Positions 4,080 to 26,427 of a stretch of 64,000 nt of DNA are shown piece by piece. Source of the stretch: Clostridia bacterium (GTDB lineage Bacteria > Bacillota > Clostridia > Oscillospirales > Acutalibacteraceae). The stretch is from positions 1 to 64,000 of the forward strand of contig JAFTLT010000003.1 in NCBI GenBank assembly GCA_017452785.1, read 5' to 3'. Within the stretch, counting starts at the first letter, position 1. Every line of letters begins with the position of its first letter. The position numbers and the translations under genes are program-made. The notes under the pieces are model-generated. The model was not told where the DNA came from. It did no database searches and worked only from the letters and a program-made list of their open reading frames with translations.

Positions 4080-4110
4080 AACTTTTCAATCCTTTCTGAA
4101 TTTTGATATG

Positions 4111-4142
4111 AAAAGAGCCCCAACGCTTTCGCATTGAGGCTT
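4111..4142 (-). terminator. Terminator-like hairpin between CAP gene and adhesin
   Basis: Read on the minus strand, AGCCTCAA and TTGGGGCT pair around a short GCG-AAA-GC apex and are followed by CTTTTC. It lies just after the stop of the CAP lipoprotein and 30 bases before the adhesin start, so it may reduce read-through into the adhesin. The stem has one mismatch and the T-tract is short. Confidence 0.55.
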
Positions 4143-4158
4143 CAATTCCTAAATGGGT

Positions 4159-5088: not shown

Positions 5089-5150
5089 GATGCATTGCCT
5101 CCAATCAGTCTTTTACTTACATTACACGACTGAGTCTGGAGAAATACAAC

Positions 5151-5564: not shown

Positions 5565-5591
5565 AATTTATCTCCTTTCTTCAAAATCAAA

Positions 5592-6755: not shown

Positions 6756-6773
6756 GGTAGTTAACCTCCTTCA

Positions 6774-8639
6774 TTAAAACTCAGTCGGCGGCTGCGCCGA
6801 ACTATATAGATTTTTCTTACGCGATGGCTTTTTCTCCGGTTTTACCTCCGGAGCAGGTTCAGTATGAGGAGAAATATCCTCATATACAGTTGTTGGTCTA
6901 TAGTCAAGAATAGAACTCTGGACAATATGCCGTGACATCGGGTGTTTTGTAAAGTCGAGCTTATCAAGCTTCAACACGTTATGACCTCGAATGATGCACA
7001 GCATTTCTTCGTTCGGTAATCTCAGAACTTCGTCCGGAGTAAGGAGTCGGCGCCTGCCATGTCCCTCCATACTGCGATACTGCGGTATGACCTGTGCCAA
7101 TGCCAAGGTTTGTCGCACTGTCATTGTGGATTTGACCTGCACCGACATATCACCCGATCGAGCAGAGAAGAACTCCGCGGATACGTCATCTGAACAACCC
7201 ATCATCAGTTGGATATCACAGTTGCCGATGATTTCGGACCATAGATTCTTCGGATATCGGTTCTGCAACTGACCCAAGCTCTGAACTGCCAGCATTACTC
7301 GAATATCTCTGGATCTGACAACCGAAAGCGAACGTGCAAAGTCGGAACCGTCTTCTGCACCTCCGATGCGGCCAACATTATTAAACTCATCTAAGATCAG
7401 GTTAACAGGAACAGGGCACCGTCCCCCGGGTTGTACATCGGCAAATCGGCTGAGCTTGATGAACATACAGCTGAAGAACAGTGACGACAAAAATGACATT
7501 GTTGCATCTTGGTCGCTGAGTATAATGTAGTACACACATTTCTTTTTCGCCGGTGCTACCAAATCTATATCCGAACTGCTGGTAATGCGTTGGACTGCTT
7601 TGTTTTGCAGCACTTGAAGTCTCGTACCCAGACCAAGTATGATACCGGACTTAACGGTATCACTGGACTGGGAGAATAAATTAAACGGAGCTCTTGCCGG
7701 ATGGTCAAGCGGTAGTTTATTGAACTTCGCTATTAACTGACCCTCAGTATTCTGGGTAAGCATCTGGTAAACCTGACTCAGATTTTTCTGATTCGGATTC
7801 AGCTTCTTATCCTGGTCAACCATCAGGATAAGTGCCTTAAGCAGGTTGCCTTCACCGTTGTCCCAGAAGTGATCTCCCTTACCGGAACTGGTATTGCCGA
7901 TGATGACATTGGTCAGCACCTGTGCCATCAGGGTGTCTCCATTTAAGTCTGACATACAGTTCCAGGAATCTCCGTGCTCAGGGTTCACGAGATTGAATAC
8001 CTTCACCTCATAACCTGCGTTGCGGAACAGTTCCACCGTGTCAGTGTACATTTCGGATTTACTGTCCGTTAAAATAGCAGATTCGCCACGGCGAATAATC
8101 TGGAACAATGCGTTACGGATAATAGCTCGGGATTTCATGGTACCTGATGCACCGAAGATGGCAATGTGTCGGTTCAGTCTGGTATCCTTTGGCATACAAA
8201 CGGCTTTGCCTTTGTACTCACCAAGGATTGTACCTTCCGCTTGACCAATCGGTGTCACCTCAAGGACCTCATTCATCTCTTTTTCATCCATCCAGGATGC
8301 GGTACCGTAGATTCCGCTGTCACTTTTAGTAAAGCCACGCGGGTCTCGTTGCTTGCCGTCAAATCGATTGTAAAGCTTGTATACAACGAAAACCGCTGCA
8401 CCGATCAGTATCATACCGACAATAGCTTTGATACCGTTGGCTGTGAATGCCATTGGAATACACACCAAAGGATTCATATTTACCGGTTTCATCATTGCCT
8501 GACCGGTAAGTCCACCGGTGTTCATCCACACAGAGTAGTTACTGAGCACCTGGCTCATCATTCCGCCCAGATACAGAACAGCAAAGGTGCCGAGTACCGC
8601 TGCCAGTATGATACCGATAAGTCTTCTCTTATCTTTCAA
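6774..8639 (-). CDS. virD4: VirD4/TraG-family type IV coupling protein
   Basis: 621 residues. Two N-terminal membrane segments (about 8-30 and 66-88) are followed by a cytoplasmic ATPase: Walker A GASGTMKS at 163-170 and Walker B LILDEF near 395. This protein links the relaxase-DNA complex to the secretion channel and energises DNA transfer at the membrane. The start is TTG 8639; GGAGG lies seven bases upstream and no better codon keeps the first membrane helix. It overlaps the stop of the upstream gene by 11 bases, implying translational coupling. The charged C-terminal tail (EKKPSRKKN) is typical of a docking region. Residue length and domain order fit the family. Confidence 0.93.
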   Translation of the reverse strand: MKDKRRLIGIILAAVLGTFAVLYLGGMMSQVLSNYSVWMNTGGLTGQAMMKPVNMNPLVCIPMAFTANGIKAIVGMILIGAAVFVVYKLYNRFDGKQRDPRGFTKSDSGIYGTASWMDEKEMNEVLEVTPIGQAEGTILGEYKGKAVCMPKDTRLNRHIAIFGASGTMKSRAIIRNALFQIIRRGESAILTDSKSEMYTDTVELFRNAGYEVKVFNLVNPEHGDSWNCMSDLNGDTLMAQVLTNVIIGNTSSGKGDHFWDNGEGNLLKALILMVDQDKKLNPNQKNLSQVYQMLTQNTEGQLIAKFNKLPLDHPARAPFNLFSQSSDTVKSGIILGLGTRLQVLQNKAVQRITSSSDIDLVAPAKKKCVYYIILSDQDATMSFLSSLFFSCMFIKLSRFADVQPGGRCPVPVNLILDEFNNVGRIGGAEDGSDFARSLSVVRSRDIRVMLAVQSLGQLQNRYPKNLWSEIIGNCDIQLMMGCSDDVSAEFFSARSGDMSVQVKSTMTVRQTLALAQVIPQYRSMEGHGRRRLLTPDEVLRLPNEEMLCIIRGHNVLKLDKLDFTKHPMSRHIVQSSILDYRPTTVYEDISPHTEPAPEVKPEKKPSRKKNLYSSAQPPTEF

Positions 8640-9783
8640 ACAAATTCCTCCGTTCCGGGCCGAGTTCCTCTTCTACCGTGTTTATGTCGATCAATTTTAT
8701 TTCGACACGTTGGCCCAAGTATTCACGGAGAAAAGCAACCTGGTATGGAAAGCACAGGACGACTACGTCTCGTTCTTTCACATCAAGTGCTTCACTAAGA
8801 CGAATCAATCTGGCAATATCACCATCCAGGTAAGAATATATATAGACGTCGTCAACGACGGCATCGTATTCAAAAAGCCCTCGATTATAGGATCTGTCTT
8901 CGGGCTCGAAAAGAAGACCCAGTATTTTTTCCTTCCAGTCTGGAACTGTGATGAAGCTCAATTGCCTCATACCATCTTCGTTCATTGGAATAAAATAAAT
9001 GTGGTTATATATTGAGTCAAATCTGAACTCATGCTTCTCGGATTTGTCCGACTCCATTATGGTATTCAAGGCAACTGTCCCGGATTGACCTACAAGAATA
9101 GCGGAATCCACTCGGGATATCCTTGAATTCATATTGGCCAGCTCTTGCAATGAGTCACGCGCCTTAAACTCACCCTTACCCGACCATCTCATTGCAGCAT
9201 CACGCGTATTGTACATGGCATAGCAAGCGTCACCTGCAAATAAGGCCCCGACCATTCTGGTGAAACTCGTCTTGCTCATCTCATCCTCGCTGAGTCTCTT
9301 AAGGTCTTTTGCGGGATACATAACGGCTTCGCTGGGTATGACAGAAAGAAAGTCATTGTTTTGAAGTTCAGGTAACCGATATGGTCTTGCTTCGATACCG
9401 GTTCGCATACACAAAGCAGCAACCTCTGCGATGCGATGATTTCGTTCCCGGTGTGACTTGTCTCCGGAGAAACGATGGTTTCTGAACGCATCAAGGTAAT
9501 ACTGCTTGGTCTTGGGTTCAATCCATTCCAGTATTGGAAGAGCAGCTTTGTATAGGCGGATGGTTTTCTTGTTTCCTTTTCCCGACACACTCAGGAGTCG
9601 GCATGTCATGGTGGTGCCGTTCTGAGTATGGAGAAAGGTTTGCGGGCGAGTCAGTTGATTGATGAGTATCTTGTAGGCATCTTTGTTACCGAGCAGTTGG
9701 CGTGAACGATGTGGATACTCACCGACGAATGACAGAAGTGTAATGAGCTGCCAGACCTGACTGCCGGGGATGAAGTGAATCAT
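8629..9783 (-). CDS. ICE protein of unknown function upstream of virD4
   Basis: 384 residues from ATG 9783 (a TTG at 9843 would add 20 residues but has no ribosome site). No signal or membrane segment. The N-terminal 90 residues could form a winged helix (VWQLITLLSFVGEYPHRSRQ), and the middle has a charged stretch with HRERNHRIAEVAALC. This layout recalls replication-relaxation/winged-helix proteins of mobile elements, but I do not recognise a family firmly. It ends inside virD4, with which it is probably translationally coupled. The ATG overlaps the TGA of a short upstream reading frame as TGATG. Confidence 0.7.
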   Translation of the reverse strand: MIHFIPGSQVWQLITLLSFVGEYPHRSRQLLGNKDAYKILINQLTRPQTFLHTQNGTTMTCRLLSVSGKGNKKTIRLYKAALPILEWIEPKTKQYYLDAFRNHRFSGDKSHRERNHRIAEVAALCMRTGIEARPYRLPELQNNDFLSVIPSEAVMYPAKDLKRLSEDEMSKTSFTRMVGALFAGDACYAMYNTRDAAMRWSGKGEFKARDSLQELANMNSRISRVDSAILVGQSGTVALNTIMESDKSEKHEFRFDSIYNHIYFIPMNEDGMRQLSFITVPDWKEKILGLLFEPEDRSYNRGLFEYDAVVDDVYIYSYLDGDIARLIRLSEALDVKERDVVVLCFPYQVAFLREYLGQRVEIKLIDINTVEEELGPERRNLFER

Positions 9784-9977
9784 CAGCGAAGAAACCTCGC
9801 GTTGGAAGAAATTGCGCCAACATGACTGCTCTCTTCGGCGCAAATTTCTGTTTTGGATGTTCCAAAACTCCTTGATTTACAAGGATTTTCTTCGTTTTTC
9901 TCCATCCTTACGGAAAAGGGGTGCAAAAAATGAGGATATCGTAAGGAGCAATTATGCCCCCGCAATGATGGTTTCAT
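9783..9977 (-). CDS. Possible short coupled ORF upstream of the unknown ICE gene
   Basis: An open frame of 64 codons (40 if read from the internal ATG in RMEKNEEN) ends in TGA, which overlaps the next ATG as TGATG. That arrangement is typical of translational reinitiation. The start at 9977 lies within the 3' end of the DUF6100 gene, no strong ribosome site is visible, and the product is not recognised. It may simply be untranslated spacer. Confidence 0.25.
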   Translation of the reverse strand: MKPSLRGHNCSLRYPHFLHPFSVRMEKNEENPCKSRSFGTSKTEICAEESSHVGAISSNARFLR

Positions 9978-10644
9978 AGAGCATTACCCCCTTGTCCGGC
10001 ATCGCCTTTTCTTCTATAAACCACATCGGGAAATCATGCTTTGGCACTACATAAACCTCGGTGCGGTCTTCGCTTGCCGATGCACTGCAATAGTAGTGCG
10101 AACACACCGATGGATTATCATCCGGAAGGACGTGCATTGCCACAATATCTGCAACCTTATTGACTTCGATATTATCGTGGTCTCGCATCAATCTTTCCGG
10201 TCTGTCACGATCATACACATGACGAAAAATCAATACACAGTCCCGATATCGAATTCTTGGCTTGCCTTTAAAGAACTTCTTCATCGCCTCGACCAAATAT
10301 GCTCGAATGTATTCCGTTGAGCCGGATGCTTTCTTCGGAAGCAAAGCTGGGATCCTGAGGCAGAACCATCCTTCAGCTGTGAATCCCATTTCAACCTTGA
10401 TAATGTCGGCAATGATTTCATCCACCGTTTTTGCGGCGCTTGGATTACCGGTATAAGCCGGAAGTACTCTGGTTAAAAGGGTGGTCTTTTCGGTAATGGC
10501 TTCCAACTTGATTGCCTTCTCATAAGCTGTTTCTATATCATCAGCCTCCAGATACCACCGTACTGCGGCAACCTGTTCGCTCATTCGCTTAATTCCGGTT
10601 TCAACCTTGACCATCACCTTATAAAATTTACTGTTCTTATTCAT
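9952..10644 (-). CDS. DUF6100-type ICE protein
   Basis: 230 residues from ATG 10644, which has AGGAGG nine bases upstream; the frame is open further upstream but only within the neighbouring gene. Soluble and charged, with a helical N-terminal third rich in Glu and Lys (ETAYEKAIKLEAITEKTTLL) and a beta-rich C-terminal part. It resembles the DUF6100 family that accompanies VirB4 and VirD4 in clostridial conjugative elements; function unknown. Its start overlaps the stop of the DUF5697 gene by eight bases, so the two are probably coupled. Confidence 0.7.
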   Translation of the reverse strand: MNKNSKFYKVMVKVETGIKRMSEQVAAVRWYLEADDIETAYEKAIKLEAITEKTTLLTRVLPAYTGNPSAAKTVDEIIADIIKVEMGFTAEGWFCLRIPALLPKKASGSTEYIRAYLVEAMKKFFKGKPRIRYRDCVLIFRHVYDRDRPERLMRDHDNIEVNKVADIVAMHVLPDDNPSVCSHYYCSASASEDRTEVYVVPKHDFPMWFIEEKAMPDKGVMLYETIIAGA

Positions 10645-11167
10645 CGGCGATATCCTCCTGCGCATAGAAATTGACCTTCGGCTCGTCTTCACCGTCAAAA
10701 TCAATGGTTGCGAATAGACACGGTGCATCAGGCAATCTTAGTTTGCTTATCACTCCCGTATTAGGCACAACAATGATATATTTGAGATCTTCATTCGGTT
10801 GGAGCAGCTTTGTTAAATGCTCCTCGCCTTCATACAACACTAAGATTTCATATCCCATATTTTCCTTGAGGAAGAACAACTGAGATGGATATGTTGCAGG
10901 GTAATGTGCCATCGGGTCGATTTTTTCAATAAACCTTATCAGCACCCAAACCGCAAGAATCATCCGTTGATCCGGCTGACACATCTTATCGAGTGCAAAA
11001 TAATAACCGCCGCCAACCTCCGTGATCTTGCGCTGTCTTTGGAGACTTTTCAAAACCTTTTCCAGCGCCTGCTCAGGAATCTTCAACATTTTTGTAATCT
11101 GAAGTTTTGGCAACGGTCCATATTGTGAGAGCCACTTTATTACGTGTAGCTCATCGTTTTGTAACAC
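10637..11167 (-). CDS. DUF5697-type winged-helix ICE protein
   Basis: 176 residues. Start is GTG 11167, with AGGAGG seven bases upstream. Residues 1-60 look like a winged helix-turn-helix (LHVIKWLSQYGPLPKLQITKM, then a wing with YYFALD). The remainder is mixed alpha/beta and acidic at the end. It matches my memory of DUF5697 proteins of Tn1549-like elements, whose function is unknown; DNA binding is inference. It lies 42 bases after virB4 and overlaps the next gene. Confidence 0.68.
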   Translation of the reverse strand: MLQNDELHVIKWLSQYGPLPKLQITKMLKIPEQALEKVLKSLQRQRKITEVGGGYYFALDKMCQPDQRMILAVWVLIRFIEKIDPMAHYPATYPSQLFFLKENMGYEILVLYEGEEHLTKLLQPNEDLKYIIVVPNTGVISKLRLPDAPCLFATIDFDGEDEPKVNFYAQEDIADE

Positions 11168-11209
11168 ATAAACACCTCCTTGTGCGTATTTGATATCAAA
11201 ATGAGTATT

Positions 11210-13738
11210 TTACTCGGAATGAGTATGTTCTTTCTGGCGCTGACGAAGAATTGCTTCCAATTCAGCGCGGTCTGTAGTAATCATCTCGTGTTCGGCTTTA
11301 GAGGCTTTTACGAGAACCGGCACCTTATTGTTGTTTGAATAAATTAAAGCTTCACCACGCTCAAAACGAGTGATTGACTGAATCTCGGTCTTGGTCAGTT
11401 TCAAAACATCCTGAACGTACTTGGCTTCATCCGGCTCAAGGTTGAGAATGATTTTGTTCTTTGAATTATTGATAATGGCACGCCCGTACTTACCATCTTC
11501 GAGTCCGAAGAAGTCGCTGAGGTCCTGTGTAGCAGAAACGGCTGCACCACCGAATCCACGAATGGTTTTGAAAATGGTCAAGCAGAACTCTGCAGCTTGT
11601 TTATTAGAGCTGGTACCGACAAGCTTCCATATCTCGTCGATCATAACCGCCTTCTTCTTGGTAAGGTCTTTCTTGACTGAGTCCCAAATATAATCGAGGG
11701 CAATCATCATACCAACGGGAAGAAGTTTGCCTTTAAGCTCTGACAGGTCAAACACAATATACTTATTTGATAAGTCCACGTTGGTCTGTCGATTAAAGGA
11801 TTGTGCCGAACCGGTAACAAATCGGCTTACGATAACAGCGATACGCTCGGTCATCTTATTCTCAAGCAGATGCTTGTGCAGGTCTCCGAGAATCGGCATT
11901 TGCTTCATCTTCGGAGGAGTTGCTGAGGGATCCTCATAGACCGACTCGTTATCGTGAGTGATACCAAAATCAGCGTAGGTCTTAATTAGTGCCTCATCGA
12001 GAAGTTGTTCTTCTTCATTGGTCATATCGGGGATAAGCAATGAGAAGAAAATCATTAACTGCTGAATCTTATTAGCCAGCATCGAACCGAGTTCCACATA
12101 GTCCATCGCATCGATAAGCTCCATCTCAGGAGCAATCGTGTGTCTGATTTCCATAATGTTGATGCAGTGCGGAGAACCGGGTGCAATTCGTATAAACTGA
12201 CCACCCACGGCATTACACGCACGTCTGAACTCATGACCCTTGATAGGTGCCAGGATAAAGCATTGAATGCCGCGCATTCTCATGCGCAAAGCCAAAAGTT
12301 GAAGCGTAAAGGTTTTTCCTGCTCCACTGGTGCCGATAAGGTTAAGGTTCGCGTTTTTGTTCTTCTTGGTATTGAACAGATCCACAATACATAGCGAGTT
12401 ATTATGACGGTTGATTCCAAGCAGAACGCCCGTGTCATCCGAGAGCTCATAGCTCGTAAACATATAGGTGGATGCCGCGCCGCTTGTGAGCACGTTTCTT
12501 TTAGCTTTCTTCTCAAGTGAAGGGGCTATCTTTAAAAAAGGCATTACTGAACGAAGCGCGCTCTCCTGTTGGAAACGGCAATCACTCACATACATATCCA
12601 TCGACTTTAACATATCGACCATTTGTTGCTTGCGCCACATTAGCTCCTCGTATGTTTTGGCGGATATAGTAATGAAGACCGACATATAAAACAAATCTTC
12701 ATTGTAGTTCGCGATACCGTGCTTGATGTAATAGCCGGCCTGAATGGAGTTTGCAAGTTCCTCATAGTCGGTACTGGTATCCTGCATACCCTTGATTTTA
12801 GTACGATTCAGCCTGATACGCTGAGCTACGCGATCAATGGATTTACTTCGGTTCTCTCGGCGCAGATGAACATCAATGTCCACGCCTTCGCCTGCATTGA
12901 TTAGTGAACTCATCCAACCGGCTCGAACCTTACTTGGATACCCATCACCCTTGATATACAGGAATGTGTAATACAGTCCGTCCATAATCACATAGTTATA
13001 ATGCTTTAGATCGATTCCTCGCGGAGAAACAAAATGAGCAAAGCGGATATGCGGAACTTCATCGATGCCGATAACTTTATTCTTTGCTGCCATCGTATCA
13101 ATGACCACACGCTCAACACGGCTCGTAAACGGTTCATCAACGCAAGATTTTCGATTAAAGAACATATATAGAATTTCTGCTGTTGCTTCATCCGGATCCT
13201 CGGGCTGAAGAATGTTATTCCCACACTGCATAAAGTACGCTCTGGCATTCTGTTCAGCCGTTTGCATCATACTGAAGATTTGTGAGAAGTCATCCGTTTC
13301 ATTGCGACGGAGTTCTTCATATTGGAAAATCAAAAAGAAGCGCCTTGTGAGCGCTTCTCGGCTTCCGACATCCTTGATAAGATTGATATAATCTTCTCCA
13401 AGGTGCTTGCATTCTTCGCTCGGTTCTGCTTCCAGTTCCTCACGAACCATTGCCACGTGCTTATCGGAGTCAGCGCGTCGAGTGATGGATTTGAATTGTA
13501 GTTTCATTGGTGAGATCTTGAGCCAACTCGCAAAGGTGGAGATGATGCTGAACTGCTCATCATCCGAGCGAAGCATAAAGTTGATGGGCTCAATCTCAAG
13601 GATCTTAATGTACCTGCCGTCCGTGGTTTCAACGATACCGTGGCGTAGGTCTTTGATTGGTATGAAGTCCTGTACGAACTCAAGCTTTTCTGGCTTTTTT
13701 CTTTGCTTTTTTCCTTTTGCGGAGTTGCGCTGGGTCAT
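11210..13738 (-). CDS. virB4: VirB4-family conjugation ATPase
   Basis: 842 residues. An N-terminal domain of about 400 residues precedes a RecA-like ATPase with Walker A GTSGAGKT at 469-476 and Walker B VMIDEIWK near 690. VirB4 powers assembly of the mating channel and possibly substrate passage at the inner face of the membrane. The final residues are charged. The start ATG 13738 has a GAAGGGTGGG region upstream and lies inside the 3' end of the PrgI gene, a 59-base overlap. Length and motifs are normal for the family; the gene looks intact. Confidence 0.95.
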   Translation of the reverse strand: MTQRNSAKGKKQRKKPEKLEFVQDFIPIKDLRHGIVETTDGRYIKILEIEPINFMLRSDDEQFSIISTFASWLKISPMKLQFKSITRRADSDKHVAMVREELEAEPSEECKHLGEDYINLIKDVGSREALTRRFFLIFQYEELRRNETDDFSQIFSMMQTAEQNARAYFMQCGNNILQPEDPDEATAEILYMFFNRKSCVDEPFTSRVERVVIDTMAAKNKVIGIDEVPHIRFAHFVSPRGIDLKHYNYVIMDGLYYTFLYIKGDGYPSKVRAGWMSSLINAGEGVDIDVHLRRENRSKSIDRVAQRIRLNRTKIKGMQDTSTDYEELANSIQAGYYIKHGIANYNEDLFYMSVFITISAKTYEELMWRKQQMVDMLKSMDMYVSDCRFQQESALRSVMPFLKIAPSLEKKAKRNVLTSGAASTYMFTSYELSDDTGVLLGINRHNNSLCIVDLFNTKKNKNANLNLIGTSGAGKTFTLQLLALRMRMRGIQCFILAPIKGHEFRRACNAVGGQFIRIAPGSPHCINIMEIRHTIAPEMELIDAMDYVELGSMLANKIQQLMIFFSLLIPDMTNEEEQLLDEALIKTYADFGITHDNESVYEDPSATPPKMKQMPILGDLHKHLLENKMTERIAVIVSRFVTGSAQSFNRQTNVDLSNKYIVFDLSELKGKLLPVGMMIALDYIWDSVKKDLTKKKAVMIDEIWKLVGTSSNKQAAEFCLTIFKTIRGFGGAAVSATQDLSDFFGLEDGKYGRAIINNSKNKIILNLEPDEAKYVQDVLKLTKTEIQSITRFERGEALIYSNNNKVPVLVKASKAEHEMITTDRAELEAILRQRQKEHTHSE

Positions 13739-14057
13739 ATTTATATCCCACCCTTCTAAAAGTTAGTTTTCTGCGGCTCATCAGGTAATAGATGATGTGC
13801 CCTAAATACTGGAACAGTGAGTCTCCGTCAATTCCCATCATTGCAACTACGCCGAGTGGAATCAGCGTTACTGTCATTACAACGATGCGGATTGTACTCG
13901 GCATCGGTATCAGCATCAGCTCCGGATAACCAACAAGCGCGATTAACACCAGTGCTTCGATGGCATTGCGGGGCTCAAGCATTCCGCCCAGGATCTTACC
14001 TGAGTCTGTGTAGTTTGCCGGTATAGAGAAGACATTGCTGAACTCCTGATCGTCCAT
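13680..14057 (-). CDS. PrgI-family conjugation membrane protein
   Basis: 125 residues with two membrane segments (about 33-52 and 57-75), then a strongly basic tail (QLRKRKKAKKKARKA) facing the cytoplasm. This size and topology, immediately before virB4, is that of PrgI-family proteins, which correspond to the VirB3 role of anchoring VirB4 to the channel. AGAAGG precedes ATG 14057. The gene overlaps virB4 by 59 bases. Confidence 0.85.
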   Translation of the reverse strand: MDDQEFSNVFSIPANYTDSGKILGGMLEPRNAIEALVLIALVGYPELMLIPMPSTIRIVVMTVTLIPLGVVAMMGIDGDSLFQYLGHIIYYLMSRRKLTFRRVGYKYDPAQLRKRKKAKKKARKA

Positions 14058-14072
14058 AGCTACACCTTCTTT

Positions 14073-15794
14073 CTATTCAACGCCGGGTACAACCGACGAA
14101 TCTTCAAAATTAATCTCTTTCGGTCTGCGCAGGGAAAGACTTGCTTCATAGCTCGGTGTGTTAAGTATGACACCCTCGCCACCGGAGGAATGCACCCACA
14201 TACGCTCTCCGTTTTCACCGTATCCGGCAAAGAGAAGCACGTGATTCCATCCTTGACCGTCAGCATCCATTAAGAAACCAAGGTCACCCGGCAAGAGCTC
14301 CTCGGCTGTAATGGAATAAGAATTATCCCATTGATTCCAAGTCCTTTCTTGAAGACTGACTCCAACCGCCGTTTTATATGTCCAGTCGGTAAATCCGGAG
14401 CAATCCAGACCGAAGGGCCTTATAGTTCCGCTTGTGGTAGACCCTGCCGCTGTTACAAGTTTTGGAGTATTCCATTCATCATTCCAGCCTGCAGCCGATT
14501 TGCCTCCCCAGAAGTAAGGAACCTTGCCTACAAGAGAAAGCCCGGTTTTTACAATATGCTTACGGGTCTCACTGCAATTTTGTCTCGCAAGGAATGCGAT
14601 AAGCTCGGTATTTGTAAGCGGAACTGCACTTCCGTTTGATGCTGTGCCGTAAAGCGTCATCTTAAGTGCCTGAGCTCGGCTATCAATAACTTTACCGTAG
14701 GTTGTACCAAACTGGCTGTATTCGGCATTCAGATCCAAACCGAAGGCACTGGAAATGACCGTATTATCAAAAGGATGAATGGTGCATTCCAGATACTTGA
14801 CGATTTCTTTTGTCGGGGTCAAGGTCTGTTTACCTACAGACTGATAATAGGTTGCTGTTCGGGTTCCACTAATCGAACCACCAGAGTATATGGGAAGCGT
14901 CACCGTTACGGCAGTATAAGCATCAACCTCAACGGCAACATCCGAAGTTTTTTCTTCATCCTGCACATAGTAGGTCTTTTCAGCGGTTTCATATCGGTAC
15001 TGAGGAACACCGTTGATCGTGCCGGTCTGGACGATTCTTGTGACCACCGTCATCGTAACTGGCTTATAGGTATAATATGTAACCGGTGTAACAACTTCAT
15101 TTTCCTTTTCTACCGATGTCACCGGAAACATGTTGCCGGATATTCCCGATAGCTTTGCCTCCAGGTCACTGTCGGTAGCACTGAGCTGATCAACCGAGGT
15201 GGAATATGCTGACATGATATATGCAACATCATAACCTGCAGAGCTTTGTGCGTTATTTATAAGTGCATTCATGGAAAGTTCGTAGTCATAACCACCATCC
15301 ACTATTAGAGTTTCCACCTGAGCCATTGAGGAATCGTATCCAAGACCGATAATATCAGCTATCTTATCCGTTACAGCTTCAAATACCGTAACAATGGTAA
15401 CCGGTTCGTTTCCATCAAGGCCAAGAGCTCTATTAACCAAAATCCCTGGTAGCTCTACTATGAGCACGATTAAGAAAACCACACACAAACAGATGCAGAC
15501 GAGAATCTTGAAGAGTGTGTGACGCATTGCCCATGCCGCTGAAATTATTGCACCCCAAGGGCCGCCCGAAGCAGTACCGGCCGCAATTTCTGCTACTGCT
15601 TTGCCGCCCTCAACACCGGCTTTTACAGTTGCAGCAGCCACATTTGCTGTTGCTTCTGCACCTTTCGCTGCAGCTTGTTTAGCAACCTCTTTACCGGCCT
15701 TTGTGGCTTGTTTTGCAGCTTTTGCAGCATTATTGACCGCACTGCCGTAATTATCGGCGCCGTCACCGATTTGTTGTTTATTCGGCTCTGCCAT
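14073..15794 (-). CDS. Membrane-anchored NlpC/P60 peptidoglycan hydrolase (VirB1/CwlT role)
   Basis: 573 residues from ATG 15794, which has AGGAGG eight bases upstream (a GTG nine bases earlier overlaps the ribosome site). Residues 1-75 are Ala- and Lys-rich and cytoplasmic. A single membrane segment lies at about 97-117. A long extracellular region then leads to an NlpC/P60 domain in the last 170 residues, with catalytic Cys in LDCSGF, His in WNHVLLFAGY and a third polar residue in WVHSSGG. Such proteins cut the cell wall to let the conjugation channel through. The CwlT-type lysozyme domain of Tn916 is not evident, so only one lytic domain is supported. Confidence 0.88.
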   Translation of the reverse strand: MAEPNKQQIGDGADNYGSAVNNAAKAAKQATKAGKEVAKQAAAKGAEATANVAAATVKAGVEGGKAVAEIAAGTASGGPWGAIISAAWAMRHTLFKILVCICLCVVFLIVLIVELPGILVNRALGLDGNEPVTIVTVFEAVTDKIADIIGLGYDSSMAQVETLIVDGGYDYELSMNALINNAQSSAGYDVAYIMSAYSTSVDQLSATDSDLEAKLSGISGNMFPVTSVEKENEVVTPVTYYTYKPVTMTVVTRIVQTGTINGVPQYRYETAEKTYYVQDEEKTSDVAVEVDAYTAVTVTLPIYSGGSISGTRTATYYQSVGKQTLTPTKEIVKYLECTIHPFDNTVISSAFGLDLNAEYSQFGTTYGKVIDSRAQALKMTLYGTASNGSAVPLTNTELIAFLARQNCSETRKHIVKTGLSLVGKVPYFWGGKSAAGWNDEWNTPKLVTAAGSTTSGTIRPFGLDCSGFTDWTYKTAVGVSLQERTWNQWDNSYSITAEELLPGDLGFLMDADGQGWNHVLLFAGYGENGERMWVHSSGGEGVILNTPSYEASLSLRRPKEINFEDSSVVPGVE

Positions 15795-15897
15795 TATCTG
15801 CACCTCCTATATTCAACTGCATTTGGCAGTGTTATTTTCGATTTAAGAAAAGCTAACAGCCGAACCGGAAAAACCGATTCGGCTGCTGCTCATTTGT

Positions 15898-17985
15898 TTA
15901 CCTCTTACGCTTGGGAGACTTGATTTCGCCATCACTTCTGGCTTCAGGTTCTCCGTAACGTGAAGGTGTTGATTTATAGCGAACCGTATCAACGTTGACC
16001 GTTCGCACGTTGTCGCCGTCATAAACGGGTTTTCCGTTTTCAAAGACGGGTATGCGATCCACGGCAGCCTCACCGTGAATTGCATACCATTGACTCCCGT
16101 TGACATCCTCGTATACCTGATAATCTCCACGAGGGGGAGCAAACTGCGAGGTATCGTAGAACATCGTTCCGGAACCGTTCTCGTGTCTGACTTCAAAGTG
16201 CCCGTCAAGCCTTTCGGAGCCATCCACAGAAGAAATAGGCTGATCGAATCCTGGCATAAACTGTTGGAAATAAGCCTGGTTATATGCATATGCATCATCG
16301 CCGCCCTCTAACTGAGGAGCATCGGCGTGCTGATTCATAGCATACCAGTCTACACCGTTTGCAGCTGTCATAACCGTATGAGGAGCATCCGGTTCATCAT
16401 AGTAAGCACTGTTGTACCACATAGTGTTGTGGCCATCGTGACTTGCTTCGATAACACCGTCTCCAACGGTTCTGAGAGTTGTACCCTCGGCTGCATCCGG
16501 GAATGTGGCAGCAACTTGTGCAGCTTCTGCGGTAGAGCCGGAGAATTGAGGAGCATCGTAGAACGCACCTGCACCCGGACCGCTTGCCATTTGATACCAC
16601 TGACTGCCATCCGAAGCTGTAACAACGGAATGAGGACCATCAGGTTTTTCAAATTGAGCTGCACTGTACATTGCGACTGAAGTTTCCTTTCCGTCCGTAC
16701 CCACAACCTTGGCTGCGATCTGACCACCGGTGATTTCGGCACCTGAAACATTCATACCGCTCATATGCGGCATGTAGTTTGCAAGACTTCTATCAGCAAT
16801 ATCTCCGGCAATTGTACCGGACATATTCGGTGTTCGTGCTGCGACGGAAGCGATAGAGTCACCAGTTAACTGCGCACCGTTACGTGCGGCCATACCGCCA
16901 AAGACTCTGCCAACAAATCCAATCGTACCACCGGCACCCATACGAGTACCGCCTTGTACAACAGCATCTCGAACATAGCTGTTACCCTTGAACATGTTTG
17001 CAAATCCTGACGCAAAACCGCTTGCGGCGGCACCGGTACCTGTGGCAGCAGCTCCACCGAATACGTTACCAGCGCTTCTTACTCCGTGTCCAATGCCGGT
17101 GACAACTCTTGCCGCCATCAGAAGTTCCATACCCATACTGGATCCGGTTTGGGCTACGTTAAGCCCCATTGCCGCCAGATAAGAGTCAAACTTCTGCGCA
17201 GTTTTGAGGAATGCCAAGGCGCAGAACAACCAGAGGAATACGCTGCCATATCCGGTAGATAAGGCACCACCGTTACCAATATAGGCACCCATCGAGGAGT
17301 TGAAGCCTCTCAGGAACCATACATTCATAACGAGCAATAATAGCTGGGATCCAACCATACGGCACCAACTTCTGAAAACCGGCACCGTAACTTTTGAGGC
17401 ACCCATGGAATACGCCAGAGGTGATGTGTAGCAGAGCACGCCAACCACGACATACCGTTCGACCGTTTCAAGCAAAAGCTTGAAATAGTTCCAACCTAAT
17501 GCAATCTCCAAGATAACGAGAAGCAATAAACCAACAACGGATATAGTGGCTATGATGGTTGTTAGTCCATTCATTAGCATTGATTCGATTCCTGCAAATG
17601 TGAAATCTTCTGCGTTCATCTGAATATCCATCAAGGCTGTGTACGGTGCCGTAGCAATGTCGAGGCACATTGAGAAGATCGGTTTTGAATAACCGATAAG
17701 CAGTGCAAACAATGCACTTCTACCAATCAGTGTCCACGGATTTTCCGCATCTGTAACCGGCCCACCGAATATCCGAAATAATTGCCAGACCGTTATGAGG
17801 AAGAGAATTGCCCAAGCCGTATACTGCATGACAGTAAAGGCTTTGCTTACGAAGGGGAAATATTCTTCCATGGCGGTCATGTCTGTGCCAAGCGCCTGCA
17901 GGAACATACCTGAGACAGCATCCATCAGGTCGGTTACAACAGAACTGACCCATGTGATTATCCCTTCAAATATCCAGTCAAGCAT
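15898..17985 (-). CDS. VirB6/TrbL-like polytopic conjugation protein
   Basis: 695 residues. The first 300 residues contain about six to seven membrane helices, followed by a Gly/Ala-rich segment (about 300-370) and a hydrophilic C-terminal domain of about 300 residues. That organisation fits TrbL/VirB6 proteins with long extracytoplasmic or cytoplasmic tails. The tail carries three copies of a roughly 28-residue motif ending in W-Y-x-hydrophobic (see repeat entry), and the C terminus is basic (EIKSPKRKR). GGAGGTG lies seven bases before the ATG. It lies between the VirB2-like pilin and the NlpC/P60 gene and would form the membrane pore. Confidence 0.85.
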   Translation of the reverse strand: MLDWIFEGIITWVSSVVTDLMDAVSGMFLQALGTDMTAMEEYFPFVSKAFTVMQYTAWAILFLITVWQLFRIFGGPVTDAENPWTLIGRSALFALLIGYSKPIFSMCLDIATAPYTALMDIQMNAEDFTFAGIESMLMNGLTTIIATISVVGLLLLVILEIALGWNYFKLLLETVERYVVVGVLCYTSPLAYSMGASKVTVPVFRSWCRMVGSQLLLLVMNVWFLRGFNSSMGAYIGNGGALSTGYGSVFLWLFCALAFLKTAQKFDSYLAAMGLNVAQTGSSMGMELLMAARVVTGIGHGVRSAGNVFGGAAATGTGAAASGFASGFANMFKGNSYVRDAVVQGGTRMGAGGTIGFVGRVFGGMAARNGAQLTGDSIASVAARTPNMSGTIAGDIADRSLANYMPHMSGMNVSGAEITGGQIAAKVVGTDGKETSVAMYSAAQFEKPDGPHSVVTASDGSQWYQMASGPGAGAFYDAPQFSGSTAEAAQVAATFPDAAEGTTLRTVGDGVIEASHDGHNTMWYNSAYYDEPDAPHTVMTAANGVDWYAMNQHADAPQLEGGDDAYAYNQAYFQQFMPGFDQPISSVDGSERLDGHFEVRHENGSGTMFYDTSQFAPPRGDYQVYEDVNGSQWYAIHGEAAVDRIPVFENGKPVYDGDNVRTVNVDTVRYKSTPSRYGEPEARSDGEIKSPKRKR
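16078..16671 (-). repeat. Three 28-29-residue repeats in the VirB6-like tail
   Basis: Three copies at 16588-16671, 16336-16422 and 16078-16164 each read M-x-Y-x-(S/T)-x-x(Y/F)-x-x-P, then a hydrophobic strand, D/N-G-x-x-WY and a final hydrophobic residue. Spacing between copies is about 250 bases. The copies differ clearly in sequence, so this is an old protein repeat rather than a recent DNA duplication. Confidence 0.7.
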
Positions 17986-18020
17986 CGGCTATCACCTCCA
18001 TCCCTGCTTGACCCGGATGC

Positions 18021-18413
18021 TTAAATGGTGACAGTGCCACCACCGCCGCCACCACCGGGCGAGTAATTTCCGCCGGCGATGAGAGGCTGCAAGTACGCAA
18101 CGATGAAGCCAAGAGAGTTTAGAATAATCCAAGTGATCACGATTCTCTTGAGCCACTGCGTTGCTTCGTCCACTGCACGCTGATTTCGCGAAACCATTCG
18201 GATAATCAGGGCAATGGCGCCCACTGTGACTGCCACGATGGTACTGATCGCTACAATCTGACCGTAAATATCCTGCATAATCGCCGAAAAGCGATCCCAG
18301 ATAGTTGCGGCCATAACAGGTTGCATCGAAAAAAACATTGCCGACGCAGCACCAACGAGCGACCAATAGGCGGAATTCAGGTTATTCCTACCCAGCCTGA
18401 GTTGCTTGATCAT
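18021..18413 (-). CDS. VirB2/TrbC-like pilin subunit candidate
   Basis: 130 residues. A probable signal/membrane segment at about 18-36 ends in PVMAA, and two further hydrophobic helices follow (about 50-73 and 87-112). The C terminus is glycine-rich (PGGGGGGGTVTI). Small proteins with this topology at the head of transfer operons are VirB2-like channel or pilus subunits. AAAGGAGG lies about ten bases upstream of ATG 18413. It is the first gene of the transfer operon, directly behind the promoter and leader terminator. Confidence 0.75.
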   Translation of the reverse strand: MIKQLRLGRNNLNSAYWSLVGAASAMFFSMQPVMAATIWDRFSAIMQDIYGQIVAISTIVAVTVGAIALIIRMVSRNQRAVDEATQWLKRIVITWIILNSLGFIVAYLQPLIAGGNYSPGGGGGGGTVTI

Positions 18414-18447
18414 GCCTGTGTACCTCCTTTTTCAGAATTCGGGCAAC

Positions 18448-18492
18448 AAAAAAAAGCCGTCTCTTTCAAGCATTTCTGCTAAAAGAAACGGC
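18448..18492 (-). terminator. Intrinsic terminator in the transfer-operon leader (possible attenuator)
   Basis: On the minus strand GCCGTTTCTTT and AAAGAGACGGC form an 11-bp stem (one mismatch) followed by eight T residues. It lies about 30 bases downstream of the predicted transcription start and about 35 bases before the VirB2-like start codon. It is therefore inside the leader rather than behind a gene. Expression of the operon would need read-through or antitermination. Confidence 0.8.
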
Positions 18493-18527
18493 CTCGTCTT
18501 CACCCGAGCCCACTTTTGGACGATACA

Positions 18528-18556
18528 AGTATAACACATTTTCTTTTGCTTGTCAT
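18528..18556 (-). promoter_or_regulatory. Promoter of the conjugation operon
   Basis: Minus strand: -35 ATGACA (18556-18551), 17-base spacer, -10 TATACT (18533-18528). The predicted start is near 18521. The -35 lies inside the last of five tandem 11-bp repeats, which suggests activation or repression at this site. Confidence 0.72.
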
Positions 18557-18604
18557 CGGCTATTTGTCGGCTTTTTATAGGCGATTTATAGGCACTTTAT
18601 AGGC
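18550..18604 (-). repeat. Five tandem 11-bp repeats at the transfer promoter
   Basis: On the plus strand five consecutive 11-base units end in GGC: TTGTCATCGGC, TATTTGTCGGC, TTTTTATAGGC, GATTTATAGGC, ACTTTATAGGC. On the minus strand the consensus is GCCTATAAAxx, decaying towards the promoter. The array overlaps the stop of the upstream regulator gene and the -35 element. The one-helical-turn period places all units on one face of DNA, as in operators for cooperative binding. Confidence 0.85.
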
Positions 18605-19229
18605 TTTCAAACAAGGTAAGCATATCAAGCCAAAAATCCATTCCTGCAACCGGTGTTGACCACAAACGAATTGAAAGAATTGAAATTGCCTGCTGACGAA
18701 GCCGATAGTAGACTCTTCCGGACATTCTAAGTTCTTCAAGAATCTCAAGATGCGTCAGTTTGTCTTCACGAATGTATGTCTGATAAATCACGTCATATAG
18801 TTTCTGACCATTACCGGGCTTATGTGATAATACAGTCAACGCCTCGTTTACACGGTCAAAAAGCAATCTGGACTTAAGAATGCCTTCCATACGGTTTTCC
18901 ATCTTTCTGTTGCCAAGTGCCATTTCAAGGTCCATTTGATCAATCAACTTGTCCACACCCTCAAATGGTTCATCCAATTCTTCAGCGATGCTAACCGGCA
19001 AACACTCCAACAACCAAGCAATATTTCGATAATGCTGCAAAAGAAGCAGCGTATTGTGATAGCTTTTGCGATTTTTTTCTTGCTGAGCCTTTCGAACCTT
19101 TTCATTGTCGATTTGGTGATCACCGAGGATCCCACGCTTTGTCAGAAGTGAAATAAAAGCGTCTGACTGCGCTAAAATGCGTTCTTCTTGCTGTTCATAC
19201 AGCGATTTTCCGTCTGTTTGGCGGGTCAT
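18597..19229 (-). CDS. ArpU/sigma region 4-like transcriptional regulator
   Basis: 210 residues from ATG 19229 (AGGAG ten bases upstream; the longer frame begins at a TTG that lies in the ribosome site). Largely helical. The C-terminal 60 residues (THLEILEELRMSGRVYYRLRQQ) look like the helix-turn-helix of ArpU/RinA-type phage late-gene regulators and sigma-70 region 4. It lies directly upstream of the transfer promoter, and its stop codon is inside the 11-bp repeat array. It is the obvious candidate for controlling that promoter. It overlaps the preceding gene by 35 bases. The family assignment is by pattern only. Confidence 0.6.
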   Translation of the reverse strand: MTRQTDGKSLYEQQEERILAQSDAFISLLTKRGILGDHQIDNEKVRKAQQEKNRKSYHNTLLLLQHYRNIAWLLECLPVSIAEELDEPFEGVDKLIDQMDLEMALGNRKMENRMEGILKSRLLFDRVNEALTVLSHKPGNGQKLYDVIYQTYIREDKLTHLEILEELRMSGRVYYRLRQQAISILSIRLWSTPVAGMDFWLDMLTLFESL

Positions 19230-20286
19230 ATGTAAACATCTCCTTTGCAATTATCGTTATATCCACAGGCTCACAAGGGCCTCGGATTTTACTCGTATCT
19301 ATAACAGGAGGGTAATATAAACTCTTACCCTTGCAGTCATATATACACTTCTTACAATTCGAGTGAGAAAAATACGCGTGTAATATATATGGGTCAAAAA
19401 GTGCAACGCGATTTTGAGCCGAAGTGTTTTCTGCAGATTCGGCACAATCTGTAAGAAGAATTCGACTGTACAATGCTATCAGTCTTCCAAGGTTCTCCTG
19501 ATCGGAACCCACTTTCTGCTCATTCTTTGCCAAAATGCGTATTTCGGCAATTATACGCTCAATTTTCTCATACTCCGGGATTGAAACCTCTGTATCACGT
19601 GGATACAGTTTATTAAAAATGAGGCAACCGAAGGCGCCAGGTAGACGTTGCAGCGTAAAAACATCCCCATGTTTTTGAAAGAAACGCCACACTTTAGTCT
19701 TTTCCCAGTTCCATCGTTGTCCCAGGGTTTCCAAAGTCAATACGGCACCGAACTTACCGAACTGTATAGTTGGTGCCAAAAAAGAAAACGCATTTTCCAG
19801 ATCTTCTGATACCGTGTGGCACCACAGATCCAACCATGCGTCTGCTTCGTCAAAAGTATAATTTTGCTCAACGAGTCTATTGGTGATGTTGCGAGGAAGG
19901 CAGAGGAAACCATATCCTTCTGTTGCGTACACTGAACCATCAAGACATTCCTCGCCGGAACACTTCACAACCCAATCCGTTATTTCGTATGTAAGCTTCT
20001 TTGTCTTACTGTTTAATGAATATCTGATATAACCGAGCTCAGAGAGTGCAGAAAGCGCCTCAAGGCTCTGTGCGCGGCTTCTGGAGCTAAGTATACTCTT
20101 TAACCCCACAACGCCTCCAGACCACATTCCAGGGCTTACAGCGTTAATGTGGCCGCAATAAGAAGCTTGTCCCTTACGGAACGCTGCACGGGATGCAAGC
20201 TTCGCCCAGGCACTCATGATACCTTTGCCTTCAGGCAGATGATTTCGGGGTAATTTAACCCACTGATACTTCATCAAGCATTTCAT
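19195..20286 (-). CDS. Replisome-organiser-like winged-helix ICE protein
   Basis: 363 residues from ATG 20286 (AGGAG nine bases upstream; TTG 20295 is less likely). Residues about 65-110 look like a winged helix (LEALSALSELGYIRYSLN). A second DNA-binding-like segment around 195-225 (ETLGQRWNWEKTKVWRFFQ) recalls the N-terminal domain of phage replisome organisers/DnaD-like proteins. A small Cys cluster lies near 320 (HSNCKKCIYDC) and may bind zinc. Replication or partition of the excised element is a plausible role. It overlaps the regulator gene downstream. Confidence 0.55.
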   Translation of the reverse strand: MKCLMKYQWVKLPRNHLPEGKGIMSAWAKLASRAAFRKGQASYCGHINAVSPGMWSGGVVGLKSILSSRSRAQSLEALSALSELGYIRYSLNSKTKKLTYEITDWVVKCSGEECLDGSVYATEGYGFLCLPRNITNRLVEQNYTFDEADAWLDLWCHTVSEDLENAFSFLAPTIQFGKFGAVLTLETLGQRWNWEKTKVWRFFQKHGDVFTLQRLPGAFGCLIFNKLYPRDTEVSIPEYEKIERIIAEIRILAKNEQKVGSDQENLGRLIALYSRILLTDCAESAENTSAQNRVALFDPYILHAYFSHSNCKKCIYDCKGKSLYYPPVIDTSKIRGPCEPVDITIIAKEMFTYDPPNRRKIAV

Positions 20287-20325
20287 AAGAGACAACTCCT
20301 TTCTTTCATTTTTATTTATATAATC

Positions 20326-20544
20326 TTAGTCCTTGATTCTGACATGAAGCCCATTGAGGTTCGCAATACGAATTCCTCGTAGATACCAAAAGGACCCCAA
20401 CTCAATACGAGTAGGGATCCATTCTCCATTAATATTCACTTCGAGGCATTCTCCGCAATGAAGCCCTCCATAAAAATCCAGTAATCCAAACCGGATATCC
20501 ATTCGACCACTCTCGTGATCATAAATCAGTACACCTTCTCTCAT
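20326..20544 (-). CDS. DUF5348 small ICE protein
   Basis: 72 residues: MREGVLIYD at the start, GLHCGECLEV in the middle and GLHVRI near the end match the DUF5348 family of short beta-rich proteins found at the end of clostridial ICEs. Function unknown. AAAGGAG lies upstream of the ATG. It is the first ICE gene inside the spoIVB border. Confidence 0.75.
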   Translation of the reverse strand: MREGVLIYDHESGRMDIRFGLLDFYGGLHCGECLEVNINGEWIPTRIELGSFWYLRGIRIANLNGLHVRIKD

Positions 20545-20726
20545 ACAAGGTCTCCTTTCAAAATGGCAGCTACAAATAAAATAAGCCAGGCAGGGTAGCT
20601 AATCCTGTCTGACTTTGTGGCAGTATTGAATTTTTTGCTGGTTGAATTGCTATCCTCCTTTGTGATAACATTAGGTTTACAATCTTATCCGCGCAGATAA
20701 CATCCCTCGTCGTGGTCAATGATTTG

Positions 20727-20775
20727 GGACAAGCACCGGAAACGCCCTAATTAACGGGATTTCCTGTGTTGGTCC
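20727..20775. repeat. 49-bp imperfect palindrome at the ICE end
   Basis: GGACAAGCACCGGAAA on the left pairs with TTTCCTGTGTTGGTCC on the right around a TAATTA-containing centre at 20751. I count 17 Watson-Crick pairs and one G-T of 24 possible. It lies 13 bases from the spoIVB stop and just downstream of a -10 box reading into the ICE. No T-tract follows, so it is not a terminator. It could be a recombinase, regulator or oriT-type site. Confidence 0.7.
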
Positions 20776-20776
20776 T

Positions 20777-20805
20777 ATTATAACACACTCACATACCCTG
20801 CACAA
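20777..20805 (-). promoter_or_regulatory. Candidate promoter spanning the ICE/spoIVB border
   Basis: Minus strand: -35 TTGTGC (20805-20800, weak), 17-base spacer, perfect -10 TATAAT (20782-20777). The -10 belongs to the ICE and the -35 to spoIVB, so the circular ICE would have a different -35. Transcription would run into the DUF5348 gene. The weak -35 makes this uncertain. Confidence 0.4.
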
Positions 20806-21865
20806 TACCGCCTGTTTTTTCTATCAGTTCACTGTCTGTTACTTTTATTACCATATGCTTATTTTCTTTATTCGAGGGCGATATTTTTGTTATTTCGATA
20901 TCATAATATCGGGCTCCCTTTTCATCAACCGTTGCAATTATCTGAGCTTTACCGGTTTTCACTTCATAGCTCATTGCAATGGGAACAGCACCGTCAGAGG
21001 CAACATTTTTTGTCATAACTCCGTAAACTCCACGGGAGTTGTTGTCACAAAGAATGCCTATGCTGTCACTTAAAAAGCTGCCGCAGAGCTCACCTGCCTT
21101 GCCGCTTTGTCCCTTATAGCAGCCGCTGACCTTTGCTGAAACAATATCTCCGTCACTCAAAGGTAAAATTTCTCCCGTATCAATATCACACACTCCGTGA
21201 CCGAGACCTGCAAAGATTTTGCTGCCTGGCTCATAAAACGTCAGGGTACCTATGCCTGCTGCACTGTCTCTTATCCACATGCCCGCCTTATATTTTCCCT
21301 CTGAAATGCTGTAAGCGGTATTCAGCACAGTGTTATAATGTACAGAATTTCTCACATACTCAATTTTGAAGGAGGTCTTGCTGCCTTGTGAAATAAGATT
21401 TGACACTTCGTTGCTGCTTGTAACCTTTTTGCTGTCAATTTTCAATATTACGTCACCTACTTTAAGGCCTGCATTTTCAGTCGGTGACACATCGCCTGTG
21501 GCTGTGTCTACAGTTTCAGCCTTGACGATAACCACGCCTTCAGTGAAAAGACGCAGACCGAAAATTTCGCCTGAGGGCACAACATAATGTCTGCTGCTGA
21601 CAGTAAGAGAAGAGTTTTTAATCGGTATGGCTCCTAAAAGACTGACACTGACCTTATAGTGCTTTTCTTCATTTTCGCTGCCTTTGATTTCGTGGGCTGT
21701 GTCATCACTGTAAGTGACCTTAAACAGGTTGTTTACCCCTATTTCCTGCCCCTGAAGGGTGTAAATTTCATCAGGCACCGTATAAAAGCCATAAACCGTA
21801 AGCGAGAGCGTTAAAACGGTGATAGCTATGATTAAACATTTAAAGAACTTTATTCCTTTAACCAT
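20789..21865 (-). pseudogene. spoIVB: SpoIVB sporulation peptidase, interrupted by the ICE
   Basis: 358 codons. N-terminal membrane segment (about 8-28), PDZ domain (about 100-185) and the SpoIVB S55 peptidase domain with the catalytic His region GLGHGVCD (His223). The frame ends TGGIVQGM then TGA. In the family this stretch continues with SGSP, which contains the nucleophile Ser, and about 60 more residues. The ICE begins exactly here. SpoIVB triggers SigK activation in the forespore-to-mother-cell pathway; this allele should be inactive unless excision restores it. GGAGGTG lies five bases upstream of the ATG. Confidence 0.88.
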
Positions 21866-25208: not shown

Positions 25209-25221
25209 AGATATTCCTCCC

Positions 25222-26394: not shown

Positions 26395-26427
26395 CCTGAC
26401 ATCTCCCTTCAGATAAAATGCAAAACC

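Follow-up and report, generated by a model that had tools for sequence, protein, structure and literature searches.

The closest described counterparts of the locus reported here are the streptococcal ICEs with triplet serine integrases and Tn1549- or Tn5252-type modules. As far as the available part of that account goes, these elements carry, close to one end, three large serine recombinases that all point the same way, are bounded by very short direct repeats of 2-8 bp, and disrupt the gene in which they land, known examples being mutT, traG and hsdM (PMC4701971). The element in our window has the same recombinase arrangement and likewise splits its target gene, here with a 3-bp repeat, and its CD1115-group VirD4 corresponds to the Tn1549-type conjugation functions found there. 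It differs from the streptococcal ICEs in its target, which is spoIVB, a sporulation gene, in Clostridia, and in the existence of related cargo that replaces the 3' end of the target gene.

SCC-like cassettes, known from staphylococci and enterococci, provide a second point of comparison. The accessible passages on SCC and the Enterococcus cassette chromosome describe large serine recombinases, one conserved entry gene, variable adjacent cargo and remnants with att sites, a combination that resembles what we find at spoIVB (PMC6222049). The entry gene there is rlmH, however, and the recombinases described here score far below the Ccr models, with a best CcrB score of 97.8 bits against a cut-off of 900, placing them outside both CcrA and CcrB. 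A further difference from SCC is that the exchange at spoIVB covers roughly 40-55 codons, starting with the catalytic-serine motif. Serial insertion with preservation of the entry gene, as in SCC, is seen in relatives of our element (14 stretches) but not in the window's own element.

Insertions in other sporulation genes are known from both Bacilli and Clostridia (PMC5595907, PMC10747680, PMC4191935). According to the parts of these sources at hand, skin in sigK, vfbin in spoVFB, SPbeta in spsM and yin in yabG are mobile elements that split a sporulation gene which can be precisely restored, as it can be in silico here; those elements are prophages or prophage-like, whereas ours is an ICE (PMC10747680, PMC4191935). 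The gin element in gerE of B. cereus resembles ours in being of non-phage type, in lying within a sporulation gene and in having three serine recombinases. Sporulation-specific excision has been shown for gin, while the element described here is known from sequence alone; a conjugation module goes unmentioned in the available passages on gin and is present here; and gerE acts in the mother cell, whereas spoIVB is a forespore gene (PMC5595907).

Among the titles and abstract openings that we searched, a body of literature that leaves most subscription papers and bioRxiv outside, there was no report of an element in spoIVB. The main texts of PMC5595907, PMC4701971, PMC10747680 and PMC6907783 do not contain the word spoIVB, and the passages available from PMC5894183, PMC3533761 and PMC3789822 mention the gene without mentioning an insertion. 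Triplet ICEs that disrupt genes, insertions in sporulation genes and SCC-like cassettes are thus all known; what is new is their combination at spoIVB.

Results

The element interrupts spoIVB at the SGSP motif

The window is the 64,000-nucleotide stretch of Clostridia DNA analysed here, the first 64,000 positions of a contig (C36) from an 89.8% complete MAG. Its open reading frame at 20789..21865 (-) encodes SpoIVB, matching Pfam Peptidase_S55 at 1.6e-56 (profile positions 2-175 of 210) and TIGR02860 at 299.9 bits (positions 8-361 of 402), a score that falls just under the cut-off of 305.25 because the end of SpoIVB is missing. The frame consists of 358 codons and a TGA stop contributed by the element; the SGSP motif and the final 43 residues are missing. 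As the original prediction had read, it terminates in TGGIVQGM-stop, and it does so because the mobile element starts there.

The same prediction held that the family continues with SGSP and that an ICE had entered at this conserved motif, and comparison with relatives agrees on both counts. A spoIVB match was found in 35 of 40 relatives searched (four of the five without one belong to the same genus), and in all 29 loci that we fetched (L007-L035) the frame continues with SGSP and 34-51 further residues; none has the element at that spot, and all encode a full SpoIVB. The insertion target is the Met-Ser junction of the conserved QGM-SGSP motif, whose serines presumably include the nucleophile of SpoIVB. 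In the closest relative, L007 (G008:C74), an in-frame TAG interrupts the part of spoIVB that encodes the N-terminal hydrophobic segment, reflecting either decay or a sequencing error.

Comparison of the two junctions places the crossover in the overlap TGT, with core dinucleotide TG, at 20791..20793 (-). This triplet, the short direct repeat common to both junctions, directly precedes the first Ser codon of SGSP. The left element end, attL with arm P' (GTGAGTGTGTTATAATAGGACCAACACAGG), lies at 20763..20792 (-), and its first 18 bases are identical in L043, L055, L103 and L151/L168, the last two being one locus. The sequence GTGAGTGTGTTATAATAG follows spoIVB in these four other genomes as well, which bears out the earlier assignment of the bases after GGTATG to an ICE.

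The other half of the gene lies at an element end on contig C48

The original prediction called for a SpoIVB C-terminal part at the opposite border, and we found one on contig C48. The spoIVB 3' part, 43 residues beginning SGSP, occupies C48:101243-101371(-) and is fused to an element end; it is the single such place in the genome when a relative's C-terminal tail is used as query at E values up to 10. Joining the two flanks in silico gives GGTATG-TCAGGC and an open frame for a SpoIVB of 401 aa, so that precise excision restoring spoIVB can be reproduced on paper. Joining the element ends gives GTTGGTCCTATATTGACACACTCG-TG-TGAGTGTGTTATAATAGGACCAAC, the attP of the predicted circle, a near-palindrome in which 22 of 28 positions around the core TG are symmetrical.

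The two ICE ends thus sit on separate contigs, C36 and C48. Contig C36 begins inside the element at window base 1, and on each of the two contigs the element continues past the contig end; provided that a single element is involved, it is at least 31 kb long. The spoIVB 5' part was matched twice in the genome, in the window and on C66, a redundant contig of 6566 bp that covers window positions 20457-27022 at 99.985% identity, with one mismatch and the same junction. A second, intact spoIVB, which would have told against the prediction, was not found in this 89.8% complete MAG.

Two further observations concern the element ends. C66 starts approximately 330 bp inside the element and may represent a strain variant of the ICE. 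In the right-end stretch L038, the element end occurs a second time (GAGTGTGTGATAATAGGACCAACA, positions 529-552), some 157 bp inward of the right border, and a duplicated end pair about 150 bp apart is also present in L042 and L049.

Conjugation genes at one end and a recombinase triplet at the other

The left part of the ICE fills window positions 1..20790 (-), with its genes read away from spoIVB. The first gene after attL, at 19195..20295 (-), encodes a 366-aa protein that has no Pfam or NCBIfam family. Further along lies a 695-aa protein with no family match (15898..17985, -), a putative VirB6/TrbL-like channel protein by its position. Beyond it lie an NlpC/P60 cell-wall hydrolase of the conjugation module (14073..15803, -; Pfam PF00877, 1.3e-12), a PrgI family protein (13680..14057, -; PF12666, 5e-6), a CD1110-like conjugation ATPase resembling VirB4 (11210..13738, -; 277 bits, under the cut-off of 325) and a VirD4-like coupling protein of the CD1115 family (6774..8639, -; 370 bits, cut-off 250). 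A large cargo protein with an N-terminal stretch that by eye looks signal-like (2..4085, -) runs off the contig start. The window side of the element therefore holds a conjugation module of CD1115/Tn1549 type, CD1115 being, we assume, representative of the Tn1549 group.

At the other end, 1 kb from the right border, three large serine recombinases lie in the same orientation (L038 1383-2993, 2983-4689 and 4689-6347). These proteins of 536, 568 and 552 aa each have Resolvase, Recombinase and Zn_ribbon domains, and together with the CD1115-type conjugation module they uphold the earlier identification of the element as an ICE. Before rec1 come, in order, a pemK RNA (RF02913, 76 bits), a DUF6870 gene and a promoter-like TTGACA-N17-GATAAT; deeper in from the triplet are a sigma-70 region 4 protein, an HTH regulator, an actin-like (ParM-like) protein and a DUF3854 protein. 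A search with the relaxase profile PF03432 gave two matches in the genome, one on C14 (a whole contig of 4751 bp) and one on C9, neither of which could be tied to the ICE. C14 shares no end words with the element and has no tblastx match to the G351 stretches that would mark it as the missing ICE middle.

Some sequence features of the region are recorded here in their own right. The pemK RNA, at L038 6825-6888 (-), lies upstream of the DUF6870 gene, and part of the leader is conserved in G351. By eye, window positions 20640-20760 (+) resemble the rec1 leader in opposite orientation (TGGTCAATGAT...GCACCGGAAAC...GATTTCCTG), perhaps as a shared RNA element; an Rfam search of the left end returned no match up to E 1. 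Outside the element, the window encodes two adjacent and similar coiled-coil proteins with a peptidase-M23-like end (26464-27834 and 27864-29270, -), whose genes are 77% identical over 548 bp and lie beside ftsE/ftsX-like genes, all names being given by eye.

The landing site is used repeatedly

Scanning genome contigs with the end pattern GAGTGTGTNAWWATAGGACCAACA recovered 18 stretches. They come from 17 MAGs whose titles name Clostridia, Oscillospiraceae, Lachnospiraceae or Tyzzerella, and 12 of these 17 titles also mention a herbivore gut sample. In 16 of the 18 stretches, two of which (L040 and L054) come from one MAG, the host side is spoIVB cut at the same codon. The remaining two are L041, with a host flank of only 11 bases, and L051, an exception in which SGSPV is followed by non-SpoIVB sequence. 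Viral contigs scanned with the end pattern and with the left-end leader gave 0 and 0 matches. The earlier suggestion that recombinases take conserved motifs as targets gains support from this recurrence of the spoIVB site.

Truncation of the window type was found in five genomes with about four distinct spoIVB alleles, those of L043 and L055 looking alike. Among 398 genomes of the family, the left-end pattern, with 3 mismatches allowed, occurred in this genome and in G535 only. Close relatives of rec3, the recombinase nearest the element end (E<=1e-140, scored on the best three candidates per genome at this strict E-value) were present in 3 of 394 genomes of the order, namely our own, G315 and G351. 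Each of these three has a triplet beside a P arm and a spoIVB 3' fragment, and our recombinases are 48-59% identical to those of G315 and G351, each to the one at its own triplet position. We considered and rejected a location of the G351 ICE away from spoIVB, the alignment showing an SGAPILL 3' end there.

Related insertions bring replacement 3' ends

Searching the 17 genomes with a full-length SpoIVB as query showed that the gene reaches its C-terminus in 13. In the remaining four it is cut by the contig end (G052), truncated at the codon (G044 and G055) or present as a fragment only (G042); with the same query, no 3' part was found in G044 or G055. G040 has both an intact gene and a truncated one that aligns over just ~175 bases at 72%, and the latter probably comes from another organism in the MAG. 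Downstream of spoIVB in these genomes there are extra C-terminal fragments that start at the Ser codon.

To this we can add a sample of 295 genomes of the order, 267 of which had a spoIVB match and 22 of which, besides our own, had more than one. Fragments starting within two residues of the Ser codon were found in 19 of these 22 multi-match genomes, the exceptions being G129, G162 and G233; as this second look covered the multi-match genomes, the fragment count is a lower bound. In a set of 42 loci there were 41 distinct orphans. The P arm (TGTTG.. TTGACA.. TG, with up to three substitutions, a pattern written after the orphans had been seen) stands just before the Ser codon in 37 of the 41, compared with 0 of 23 intact spoIVB genes. 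Of the four orphans without it, one has only two upstream bases, two have worn-looking arms and one (L129) is different. Where a stretch includes both the intact gene and one or two orphan 3' ends, which is so in 14 cases, the orphans lie on the same strand, downstream of the gene, at distances of 0.8 to 13 kb.

This arrangement looks like cargo that brings its own replacement 3' end, as in SCC arrays. Many related insertions leave spoIVB unbroken because such a replacement end is present, a point that the original prediction missed. Among the 20 cargo stretches L087-L106, matches to the triplet at 1e-10 were confined to L092 (G050) and L101 (G054), where a single recombinase, respectively 39% and 35% identical to rec2, follows the spoIVB 3' end. 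With a recombinase beside the gene in these two genomes, some cargo may not need an ICE.

The same two genomes argue for an exchange of gene ends. Before the core, the SpoIVB proteins of G050 and G054 share 35% identity over 271 aa, while the last 156 bases of their genes are 78% identical, encode a common 16-residue extension (ETANQVAEEQAKKDAS) and are followed by similarity that runs on into the element. The extension is missing from the G050 orphan, whose identity to the end of the G050 gene is 71%. A second directed pair, G043/G049, is less clear (0.49 before and 0.69 after the core). An all-pairs scan of intact genes (1711 pairs) gave a mean difference of 0.18 between 3' and 5' likeness, which is uninformative on swaps, conservation being generally higher at the 3' end; the shared extension of G050 and G054 is better evidence for a 3'-end swap than the pair scan.

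The content of some cargo could be read by eye. Between spoIVB and the orphans in L093 (G049; 4685-7757), L145 (G057), L144 (G227) and L146 (G182) there is a large protein starting MKLVFVSSTFKDMQFERDM, together with metabolic genes resembling threonine dehydrogenase, a glycyl-radical enzyme with its activase, and an aldolase.

A promoter-like pair is assembled by circularisation in silico

At the left junction, a promoter-like pair spans 20777..20805 (-), its TATAAT (20777-20782) lying within the element. In the integrated state, the -35 position is occupied by TTGTGC of spoIVB. In the circle built in silico, TTGACA from the right end and TATAAT from the left end are 17 bp apart and face the conjugation genes. 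In 224,880 strand positions of DNA from this organism there are two exact matches to TTGACA-N17-TATAAT, a frequency that leads one to expect about 0.0005 matches by chance over the junction, and TATAAT is retained in all five other left-end reads (L043, L055, L103, L151 and L168). The TTGACA is present in most P arms, including those of cargo without a P' arm, and may just be part of the recombinase site. From this consensus match it is possible that circularisation acts as a switch, by which joining TTGACA to TATAAT would start transcription of the transfer genes only after excision.

Sporulation and the interrupted gene

According to the available parts of two papers, SpoIVB is counted among the core genes of spore formers (PMC3533761) and is made under sigma-F and sigma-G, its gene being listed in the forespore regulons (PMC3789822). 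While the ICE is resident, SpoIVB would be left without its catalytic C-terminus and should be inactive, and sporulation would be either blocked or dependent on prior excision. The MAG does contain SpoIVA, as well as open frames that read as spoIIAA, spoIIAB, sigF and sigG.

What this means for the cell can be read in several ways. We give an even chance to one of them, that of an ordinary ICE, in which spoIVB is interrupted for as long as the element resides there and rare vegetative excision yields a sporulating minority, with no regulation and at little cost. The promoter-like sequence before rec1 looks vegetative, its GATAAT being replaced by CATAAT in G351 and by CATACT in G315, all of them sigma-A-like by eye; the same truncation is seen in five genomes on about four spoIVB alleles; and the streptococcal triplet ICEs, in the part of the account available, disrupt mutT, traG or hsdM in like manner (PMC4701971). 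The arrays of orphan 3' ends, however, are left unexplained by such a scheme alone.

It is less probable, though still a serious contender, that the lineage has become asporogenous and that spoIVB is a harmless landing site. The best sigK-profile score in our MAG is 80.7 bits, compared with at least 236 bits in 28 of the 31 genus genomes (the exceptions besides our own being G018 and G789). The family cut-off of 298.65 was passed by none of the 31 genus genomes, nor by the B. subtilis control, and we term these matches sigE/sigK-like. Our MAG, at 89.8% completeness, has no such match, and genes can be missing from it by chance. Loss of a core gene of spore formers would fit this explanation; the presence of SpoIVA and of open frames for spoIIAA, spoIIAB, sigF and sigG speaks against it, as does the state of spoIVB itself. 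Relative to G008, the 5' part has a dN/dS of ~0.14 and the 3' part one of ~0.05; the 5' parts of uninterrupted pairs with finite dS give 0.11-0.22. Both halves look conserved and without decay, which is weak evidence, since the test is powerless if the insertion is recent and the G008 gene used for comparison has an in-frame TAG.

The original prediction also raised, as an alternative to abolished sporulation, a new regulated insertion, in which the ICE would be excised during sporulation and spoIVB restored on time. We consider such a developmental switch possible but do not favour it, and judge it unlikely. The precise in-frame restoration in silico, the apparent conservation of both gene halves (with the limits just given) and the presence of SpoIVA, sigF and sigG are what it would lead one to expect. 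The accessible accounts offer precedents in sigK, spsM, spoVFB, gerE and yabG, gin even having three serine recombinases (PMC5595907, PMC10747680). The sigma-A-like promoters before rec1 in our genome, G351 and G315 count against it; as the recombinase is constitutive in SPbeta and in the C. difficile skin element, according to the same partial source (PMC5595907), such a promoter is nonetheless compatible with control of this kind. SpoIVB is made in the forespore, so that excision there would strip the ICE from the germline, unlike the case of skin. The MAG also lacks a sigE- or sigK-like match, and no directionality factor was found. Least probable by far is that the junction is an assembly chimera of a spoIVB contig and an ICE contig, as might be feared from a MAG in which the redundant C66 shows assembly duplication and the element runs off both contigs, for an identical junction recurs in four further genomes, whose spoIVB sequences amount to about three additional alleles, and the 3-bp overlap is shared by the complementary gene half at the opposite end.

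The sigK search also yielded an observation on a different locus. In G003:C28 (L170), a sigK-like gene is present in two halves, at 39613-39957 and 56413-56769 (profile positions 2-115 and 108-226), approximately 17 kb apart; this is a skin-like insertion within the genus that the window belongs to. G006 and G789 have the two halves on separate contigs.

Discussion

We consider it very likely that the window contains the left part of an ICE that entered spoIVB by site-specific recombination. Integration would be an attP x attB reaction carried out by one or more of the three recombinases, and excision an attL x attR reaction by the recombinase(s) together with a directionality factor. The spoIVB site would also be the hub of a wider mobile system, of which the ICE is one component. 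In the cargo, the layout is spoIVB 3' end, cargo, P arm, so that integration would exchange the 3' end and spare the gene, while the 3' end that the host had before would persist downstream as an orphan.

A route from the one component to the other can be proposed. The ICE can supply recombinase, and, where a second site of P arm and spoIVB 3' end lies farther along, it may carry neighbouring cargo en bloc, through recombination between attL and this distal attR, and later leave. If in a new host the ICE alone departs, the cargo and the donor 3' end would stay behind and the host 3' end would become an orphan, giving the arrays seen elsewhere. Such a route would require no recombination beyond the standard pairs attP x attB and attL x attR. 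Alternatively, cargo circles in which the P arm is joined to a spoIVB 3' end might integrate directly, much as SCC does.

More tentatively, and with somewhat less than even confidence, we suggest that Clostridia have a broad cassette system run by serine recombinases, for which spoIVB serves as the docking gene. Triplet ICEs would insert at the catalytic-serine codon and turn SpoIVB off, catalytic C-termini brought by cargo would turn it on again, and each round would swap the 3' end of this sporulation checkpoint protease and add genes downstream, while the ICE circle builds a promoter for transfer. Sporulation and mobile DNA would in this way be tied together.

According to the available part of one source, spores are believed to aid the passage of gut anaerobes from host to host (PMC6907783). 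A family of elements that lands at the codon bordering the catalytic-serine motif of SpoIVB, and either disables the gene or replaces its end, would link conjugation with sporulation. More generally, spoIVB points to a place in the chromosome at which cargo can be read off, and its insertions provide new serine-recombinase att pairs with a conserved attB.
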